Assembly (NCBI RefSeq): GCF_001011115.1
Contig: NZ_CP008874.1
Span: 1,116,001 to 1,180,000, forward strand
DNA: 64,000 bases
Direction: 5' to 3'
DNA from: Halanaeroarchaeum sulfurireducens
GTDB taxonomy: Archaea; Halobacteriota; Halobacteria; Halobacteriales; Halobacteriaceae
Both the position numbers and the translations under genes were made by a program. The notes beneath the pieces were generated by a model. It saw nothing but the letters and a program-made list of their open reading frames with translations. It made no database searches and was not told the DNA's origin. Positions 7,913 to 9,281 of the stretch are shown in pieces (positions within the stretch are counted from its first letter, which is position 1; each line of letters begins with the position of its first letter).

Positions 7913-8062
7913 TCAACTCCAGTTGATCCACGGGAACTGGGGGTTGGGCTCGGCACACCCCACATCGAGATCCAGGCACCGTTGACGCTCGTACTAGATC
8001 GCCATTCCGCAATAGTCGCAAATGTTGCTGTGCCCGTCACTCCGTGGGTATTCGGTATTCAT
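7913..8062 (-). pseudogene. Small zinc-finger protein gene with in-frame amber codon
   Basis: The ATG at 8060-8062 is preceded by a near-perfect Shine-Dalgarno GGAGGTG (about 8066-8072). The frame reads MNTEYPRSDGHSNICDYCGM-A-I, then TAG at 7994-7996, then continues open as YERQRCLDLDVGCAEPNPQF up to TGA at 7913-7915. The two halves together give a CxxC (Cys15, Cys18) and a later C-x6-C pair, a four-cysteine zinc-ribbon pattern typical of haloarchaeal microproteins. The stop splits the two knuckles. It may be a recent nonsense mutation, a sequencing error or translational readthrough. Unusually for this window, the start relies on an SD rather than a leaderless promoter. Confidence 0.5.
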
Positions 8063-8455
8063 GGTGCACCTCCTCGTTCCCTGAACTAATCGGCCGCAAG
8101 CGTAGACCCGCCACCATGGGCGAGGTGAACTCTTCTCGAAAAAGGAGCAAACGATTTTCCGATTCTGTTGCTATCGGCTGTTTGAGTGGTGCCACTCCCG
8201 TTTTTGAAAAGTTGATCACGAGGAAGGTTTCGACATGGACTCGGGGGAAGGTGAACCCAGAACCAGACGGTCGCCTCGCTCCGTTCGCACTGCGACTCTA
8301 GAGCTTCAACTCCCGCGTAGCTGTGCGGTCGCCCCCGGATTGGCGGTCGGGGAGCCGAAGGTTCGCGGTTGCGTGTTTTTGGTGCAGATTTTTGTGAGGA
8401 GGGTTCCCGCAGCGAGCGTTTGCGAGCGAGGAAACCCGACGAGTAAAAAGGTGCA
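8063..8455. other. Non-coding stretch containing a tRNA-end-like repeat
   Basis: No gene is recognised between the small zinc-finger gene and tRNA-Ala. It contains the degenerate copy of the tRNA 3' end described separately at 8235-8258. Confidence 0.4.
8235..8258. repeat. Degenerate copy of the tRNA-Ala 3' end (possible att remnant)
   Basis: These 24 bases match 8455-8478, which is the 3' end and T-arm of tRNA-Ala plus one flanking base, at 21 of 24 positions. The copy has the same orientation and lies 220 bp from the tRNA on its 3' side. A direct repeat of a tRNA 3' end is the usual mark left by tyrosine-recombinase integration, although no integrase is present here. Confidence 0.4.
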
Positions 8456-8527
8456 TGGACTCGGCGGGAGTTGAACCCGCGGCCTCTCCCATGCCAAGGG
8501 AGTGATCTACCACTGATCTACGAGCCC
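8456..8527 (-). tRNA. tRNA-Ala (GGC)
   Basis: The 72-nt cloverleaf is complete. The acceptor GGGCTCG/CGAGTCC holds the G3:U70 wobble pair that identifies alanine tRNAs. The D-stem is GATC/GATC, the anticodon stem CTCCC/GGGAG has loop TTGGCAT (anticodon GGC), and the T-arm is GCGGG-TTCAACT-CCCGC. The discriminator is A and the CCA end is not encoded. No intron is present. Confidence 0.96.
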
Positions 8528-8816: not shown

Positions 8817-9281
8817 ATGGCACGAATGCATACCCGTCGCCGCGGTTCGTCCGGCTCGGACCGACCGGCGACAGATGACCCACCGGAGTGGAGCGACGTC
8901 GACGCGGAGGCCATCGAGGACCGCGTCGTCGAACTGGCAGAAGAGGGCTACGACCCGAGTCAGATCGGACTCAAACTGCGGGACGAAGGCGTCCAGGGTA
9001 CACCCGTCCCCAGCGTCAAAGCGGCGACCGACAAGAAGGTCACCGAGATTCTCGACGAAAACGACGCCGCCCCCGAGATGCCCGAAGACCTGTACAACCT
9101 TCTCGAGAAGGCCGTGAACCTCTGGGAGCACGTGGACGAGAACCAGCAGGACCACTCGAACAAGCGCGCCCTGCAGAACACCGAGTCCAAGATTCGACGA
9201 CTCGCCAACTACTACCGCGGCGACGCCATCGACGAGGACTTCGAGTATACCTACGAGAACGCGAAAGAACTTCTGGAGTAA
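8817..9281 (+). CDS. rps15: 30S ribosomal protein S15
   Basis: The 154-residue archaeal S15 has a basic N-terminus (MARMHTRRRGSSGS), the PPEW motif and the region with GYDPSQIGLKLRDEG. The C-terminal S15 core contains DHSNKRALQNTESKIRRLANYY, which binds 16S rRNA. Length fits the archaeal/eukaryotic (S13e) form, longer than the bacterial 89 residues. It leads a tight cluster with a RecJ-like gene (6 bp downstream), pcc1 and rps3ae, an order I recognise from other haloarchaea. Confidence 0.97.
   Translation: MARMHTRRRGSSGSDRPATDDPPEWSDVDAEAIEDRVVELAEEGYDPSQIGLKLRDEGVQGTPVPSVKAATDKKVTEILDENDAAPEMPEDLYNLLEKAVNLWEHVDENQQDHSNKRALQNTESKIRRLANYYRGDAIDEDFEYTYENAKELLE

Follow-up and report, generated by a model that had tools for sequence, protein, structure and literature searches.

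A probable pseudogene of a tRNA-adjacent zinc-finger family in Halanaeroarchaeum sulfurireducens

The window analysed here, a stretch of 64,000 nucleotides of Halanaeroarchaeum sulfurireducens (NZ_CP008874.1, positions 1,116,001 to 1,180,000), contains a small cysteine-rich frame with a strong Shine-Dalgarno sequence and an in-frame amber codon. The question raised by this locus is whether the gene is broken or whether UAG is read through. An earlier note, made from the sequence alone, named both possibilities, the gene being either just broken by a nonsense mutation or translated across the stop. The genome around the window comprises 2,209,738 bases in two contigs (2,085,482 and 124,256), and the features of the locus are the following.

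7913..8062, minus strand: probable decayed att-proximal small zinc-finger gene (pseudogene), from the family profile (E 2.7e-7, 31.9 bits) and the translation
8062-8060 and 7915-7913, minus strand: start ATG and end TGA of the zinc-finger frame
8067..8073, minus strand: Shine-Dalgarno sequence GGAGGTG, separated from the ATG by 4 nt (CACC)
7994..7996, minus strand: in-frame amber codon TAG, codon 23, a sense codon at that column in 33/33 aligned relatives
7957..7960, minus strand: GGGG run, putative frame change by one base relative to the family; beyond the run the other frame matches the family ending
8236..8258, minus strand: degenerate second copy of the tRNA-Ala 3' end (20/23 nt), putative old att site
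8305..8315, minus strand: inverted part-copy of the tRNA-Ala T-arm (CGGGAGTTGAA), within the spacer from tRNA to att copy
8456..8527, minus strand: tRNA-Ala (GGC), called by ARAGORN, presumed integration target
8817..9281, plus strand: conserved host neighbour gene on the other side of tRNA-Ala, matched in 26/26 genomes of the organism's family and presumably the gene for ribosomal protein uS15

The minus strand from 8062 to 7913 translates as MNTEYPRSDGHSNICDYCGMAI, TAG, and then YERQRCLDLDVGCAEPNPQFPWINWS. CDYC occupies codons 15-18, the frame stays open for 26 codons after the TAG, and reading through would give a full length of 49 residues. The start is 393 nt away from tRNA-Ala(GGC) (8527-8456), counted from the tRNA 3' end, and gene and tRNA share the strand. 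The layout described in the earlier note, with GGAGGTG 4-5 nt before ATG 8062, a CxxC pair, TAG at 7994-7996 and an open frame up to TGA at 7913, was borne out at every position, the spacing being 4 nt. Very probably, we propose, the frame is a pseudogene: it would be what remains of the first gene of an integrative element, either a provirus or plasmid-like, that had entered tRNA-Ala(GGC) at its 3' end. The frame is homologous to a zinc-finger family, is interrupted by an amber codon, has lost the CRP-stop ending of that family and lies behind a degenerate repeat of the tRNA 3' end.

Homology to a zinc-finger family

A profile of 11 relatives, from which the window was left out, matched the window frame over positions 10-38 of 38 with 31.9 bits and an E value, for one genome, of 2.7e-7, and the halves upstream and downstream of the TAG align to the same relatives. 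Because of this homology, the window frame is more than a chance open frame. The two parts, which had been suspected to form one zinc ribbon, thus belong to one zinc-finger gene, and relatives that span both halves, by which the earlier note proposed to recognise a single gene, have a sense codon in place of the TAG in 33 of 33 cases. A search with X placed at the stop also picked up another locus of the window's genome (E 2.1e-5), along with relatives elsewhere.

The relatives have in common ICxYCG, I, four further residues, QxC, PALDxGxCRP and a stop, and the family was defined accordingly as zinc fingers of about 40 residues with the pattern ICxYCGxxI-x4-QxCPALDxGxCRP-stop. Column counts refer to an alignment of 33 rows, which are the 37 family loci less L055, L058 (the window), L059 and L060, removed before counting. 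The window frame matches the core profile of the family and lies, like a family member, on the same strand just behind a tRNA 3' end or att copy. An intact frame with C-x7-C and CRP-stop is absent from it, owing to the TAG at codon 23, C-x6-C and an apparent frame shift. Since it has neither the intact frame nor the CRP-stop, we regard the window copy as a relic and not as a working member.

At E values up to 1e-5, the profile of the relatives matched 122 of the 392 genomes of the order (haloarchaea), in 44 of 95 genera. Known families were hardly touched: Pfam and NCBIfam returned no family for the window frame (X at the stop), and the 11 relatives gave no clear family in Pfam, NCBIfam or PHROGs, the best E values (0.0032, 0.004 and 0.059) each occurring in one member. 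The HVO_2901 zinc finger of NCBIfam was reached by one of the 11 (E 0.004) and by none of the others, and the best E values in the PDB search were only 0.48 and 0.55. One relative used in tblastn found no match in 50,697 phage records and three among 72,556 plasmid records; two of these three matches fall on a hypothetical protein, and the third on no annotated feature. Our literature search yielded no report of the family described here, which is not proof of absence. The family is widespread and tRNA-adjacent, apparently unnamed and probably att-proximal.

In 31 of the 33 relatives, the stop codon of the zinc finger shares bases with a possible next start (A/G/TTGA). In many loci (e.g. L075 and L056) the overlapping next frame encodes a short zinc ribbon or SWIM-domain protein, that of L075 matching the SWIM domain PF04434 with 24.1 bits.

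Lesions of the window copy and the amber codon

At the column of the TAG the 33 aligned relatives carry E (14), D (11), T (3), N (2), R (2) or G (1). Further downstream, the last two ligand positions enclose seven residues in 33/33 relatives, the first of them being C in 32 and Y in one, whereas the window frame reads C-x6-C. The second cysteine pair described in the earlier note therefore does not hold as such, since the last cysteine fits only a shifted frame. Scored against V-C-R-P, the ending of the family, the frame of the window gives -0.9 bits and the frame one base over, where VCRA is read, 10.9 bits. Of 200000 random stretches, 92 gave a shifted reading at least as good as VCRA and 6283 a difference between frames as large as that of the window, so that what is rare is the absolute fit of VCRA and not its advantage over the other frame. 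With a frame shift allowed at a penalty of 8 bits, the gain was 3.7 bits in the window copy and 0.0 bits in 33/33 relatives. An earlier, poorly designed shuffle test, in which the whole tail was scrambled, was not significant (gain reached in 207 of 1000) and was superseded by the random-stretch test of the family ending. Judged from the sequence, a one-base frame change in the GGGG run at 7960-7957 is well supported; the GCAEP cysteine would then be out of frame, as would the tail NPQFPWINWS. The gene appears to be broken twice, by the amber codon and by this frame shift, and has neither the CRP-stop ending of the family nor a stop overlapping a possible next start.

The tail NPQFPWINWS was also considered as a conserved extension, as suggested by the weak match L013, and rejected, because the translation there shows no zinc finger; since L013 had moreover been picked from 59 genomes, its match to the tail was dropped as chance. 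At the DNA level, positions 7918-7945 of the window match positions 1537-1564 of L013, from a genome of another family, over 28 nt at 93%, which is odd but probably also due to chance after selection among 59 genomes. Two further loci hold, by eye, apparently decayed zinc fingers with the family ending in another frame, namely L060 (G000:C1:1322306-1325386), in the same genome as the window and behind tRNA-Lys, and L059 (G002:C2:1840916-1843990), behind tRNA-Ala.

Readthrough of the UAG to give the full zinc finger of 49 residues, whether it relied on a suppressor tRNA, on pyrrolysine or on leaky termination, is in our view extremely improbable. The 26-codon open frame beyond the TAG and the strong Shine-Dalgarno sequence before the ATG favour readthrough, but the last four family columns fit the shifted frame only. 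Moreover, among all 17 rows of the profile search that gave E 2.7e-7 for the window, the window's row is the only one with an internal stop, and no internal stop occurs among the matches listed in the search of 392 genomes, which do not include the window's row. A query running past the family end gave eight rows besides that of the window with a stop, six being TGA at the family's own end and two being TAG in weak matches (L013, which does not belong to the family, and G044:C14 with E 0.73). The PylS_Cterm model for PylS reached at best 23.1 bits in the genome against a cut-off of 178.15; among 14 control genomes it responded below the cut-off in 12 and above it in one. A CUA anticodon was absent from the 44 tRNAs read, a list that is incomplete because a tRNA-Pro(GGG) turned up outside it. 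Of the two marks of a UAG-recoded (pyrrolysine) gene, neither a PylS above the cut-off nor, among the 44 tRNAs read, a CUA tRNA was thus seen in the genome. Among 44 likely genes of the window, picked by length and acidity alone, 29 end in TGA, 10 in TAA and five in TAG.

Of the two possibilities raised in the earlier note, the broken gene stands and readthrough is unsupported, the downstream half being apparently frame-shifted and PylS under the cut-off. That the gene was only just broken is doubtful: there is a second lesion, the ending of the family is gone and the att copy is degenerate, all of which suggests decay of longer standing. A decayed copy with a real stop codon argues for ordinary gene decay and not for readthrough, and one candidate for stop-codon readthrough in haloarchaea is removed.

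An error of sequencing or assembly, with the gene intact in the cell, is very unlikely. One lesion does lie in a G run, a common site of sequencing errors, and the locus was read in one assembly, of one genome of the species. However, two separate lesions would have to be explained, the CRP-stop ending and the overlap with the next start are both lost, no other part of an element was found in the window, and the copies L059 and L060 have the family ending in another frame as well. We also give next to no credence to the 22-residue truncated peptide, with its one CxxC, being a functional micro-protein itself: the start codon and Shine-Dalgarno sequence are kept, but no short version stopping at this place is among the matches listed, and the first half lacks the second ligand pair. 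The kept ATG and strong Shine-Dalgarno sequence also speak against decay, and a short peptide could still be made from the gene.

Relatives at tRNA ends and their possible role

Of the 36 relatives' loci, i.e. the 37 family loci less the window, 30 have a tRNA gene (Pro, Ala, Val or Lys) that ARAGORN placed directly upstream in the same orientation. Rfam added a tRNA, which we read as Trp, in L049 and L088, and called none in L045, L048, L054 and L073, the latter adjoining masked sequence; in the first three of these, 3' fragments of tRNA-Trp were seen upstream by eye. Such proximity is expected by chance in under 1% (from 44 tRNAs in 2.2 Mb), and as a control, a tRNA was found within about 3 kb in two of 17 weak-match loci outside the family (17 of the 18, L013 being left out). 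One of these two control loci, L018 (G041:C3:153494-156616), has a different CxxC gene directly behind tRNA-Pro(TGG), which by eye resembles the frame after the integrase in HRPV-9.

Nine regions, each some 55 kb long, were searched for a direct repeat of the tRNA 3' end at a distance, and seven hold one of 13-22 nt. It measures 22 nt at 15.9 kb in G058, 21 nt in G031, 18 nt in both G009 and G003, 15 nt in G008 and 13 nt in both G001 and G011; the 13-nt repeats (E about 0.05) could be chance matches. The two other regions (G014 and that of tRNA-Val of G000) showed no such repeat. The integrase domain PF00589 was confirmed in two elements, and tblastn with these two integrases found relatives in G031 and G008 and, weakly, in G011, and none in G014, G009, G003 and G000. 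Judged by the distant repeats and the integrases, several members, if not more, stand first in an element integrated at a tRNA, and position suggests the same for others. The genome of the window itself holds a member without internal stop behind tRNA-Val(GAC) (L047/L032, G000:C1:1673713), where the tRNA 3' end recurs exactly over 26 nt; its region of 55.8 kb showed no distant repeat and no integrase.

CxxC genes beside attP in haloarchaeal proviruses are already known, as they directly follow attP in pleolipoproviruses and Halfvol2 (Dyall-Smith et al. 2021, PMC7911831). Those genes and the family described here are both small cysteine-motif genes right after the attachment site at a tRNA gene, on the same strand, and both would be near integrase and attP in the circular form. 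The figure legend there gives two CxxC motifs, whereas our family has one CxxC plus C-x7-C, and the window copy is broken. Any CDS bridging attP next to the integrase would have belonged to the rest of the element, which is not in the window. In HRPV-9, the one such virus compared, the family profile found nothing above noise (best -0.4 bits, 16,000 of 16,159 bases searched), so that the position is shared but, as far as tested, the sequence is not. The C(P)XCG micro-proteins of Haloferax volcanii are likewise haloarchaeal, shorter than 70 residues and built with a CxxCG knuckle, but have two C(P)XCG motifs, whereas only the first pair of the window gene and its family is CxxCG and the second is C-x7-C.

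Since the zinc finger abuts the attachment site and its stop codon shares bases with a possible following start, the intact protein is perhaps a small metal-binding accessory that aids integration or excision. It may bind DNA or protein and serve either these reactions or the early operon of the element. In SNJ2, Orf2 and Orf3, small genes of the integrase operon, are reported to raise the efficiency of integration (PMC8371274, PMC5867852) and are comparable with the zinc finger by description. For the archaeal integrases described to date, both integration and excision can proceed with no directionality factor (PMC8371274), and this argues against an essential role of that kind for the zinc finger. 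The wider reading, in which intact relatives mark many unrelated tRNA-integrating haloarchaeal elements (tRNA-Ala, Pro, Val, Lys and Trp) as accessory of integration and excision or as directionality factor and the window copy is a fossil of this kind, is tentative and in our view rather unlikely. To our knowledge, such factors are scarcely known in archaea. With the family as a marker, tRNA-integrated elements and what is left of decayed ones can be located, and it can be tested if integrases of archaea depend on small accessory factors.

The tRNA-Ala site of the window

The putative att copy at 8258-8236 agrees with the tRNA-Ala 3' end in 20 of 23 nt (88% over 25 nt), while 2000 dinucleotide shuffles reached 18 at most and 20 in none. 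Comparison with the relatives suggests how it is to be read. ARAGORN called a tRNA in 31 loci; in seven of them, the window among these seven, the gap between tRNA and zinc finger exceeds 200 nt, and all seven hold a second copy of the tRNA 3' end (16-20 of 20 nt), from which the spacing becomes 87-212 nt; the other 24 loci have gaps of 61-198 nt and a best copy of 9-13 of 20. In the window the ICxxC codons lie 212 nt beyond the degenerate copy, L070 has 168 nt from its second tRNA-Ala copy to the zinc finger, and the spacing behind tRNA-Ala is 167-198 nt in L059, L069, L076, L081 and L087.

The conserved neighbour at 8817..9281 fixes the orthologous tRNA-Ala site. On the side of its homologue, tRNA-Ala(GGC) was found in 20/20 genomes of the organism's family looked at (of 26), and two of these 20 (that of the window and G002) have a zinc finger at the site. 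So do three of 10 more distant loci (L089, L003 and L090); of the 12 named loci, nine were taken into this comparison.

We propose that an integrative element would have inserted at the 3' end of tRNA-Ala(GGC) with its zinc finger beside the att site. The rest of the element may then have been lost or cut down, a further insertion at the tRNA would have displaced the old att copy, and the att-proximal gene would have decayed after the loss of its element. Against decay of this kind stands that near the window copy no integrase, second gene or far att repeat was found: tblastn with the two integrases gave only E 0.69 and 0.99 in the window, no remnant of a second gene was seen downstream (three frames, by eye), and the search for a far tRNA-Ala 3' repeat at the other end of the element found no long match. 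As an added fossil at a tRNA integration site the window copy is in itself of little weight, and its main value is that it led to a widespread family at the tRNA end of integrated elements.

Two further observations concern the tRNA ends. A repeat of about 145-160 nt, 83-85% identical, occurs in the window genome behind tRNA 3' ends or an apparent tRNA-Ala 3' fragment (window 8311-8470, minus strand; G000:C1:1736572-1736730, 326727-326872 and 223407-223548), also near tRNA-Ala-CGC and tRNA-Ser-GGA. By eye, the stretch between the tRNA and the second 3' copy often contains an inverted T-arm piece followed by GAGCGAAGCGAG-like sequence (window 8235-8455; L047, L057, L060, L070, L074 and L080), which looks like small units stacked at tRNA ends.
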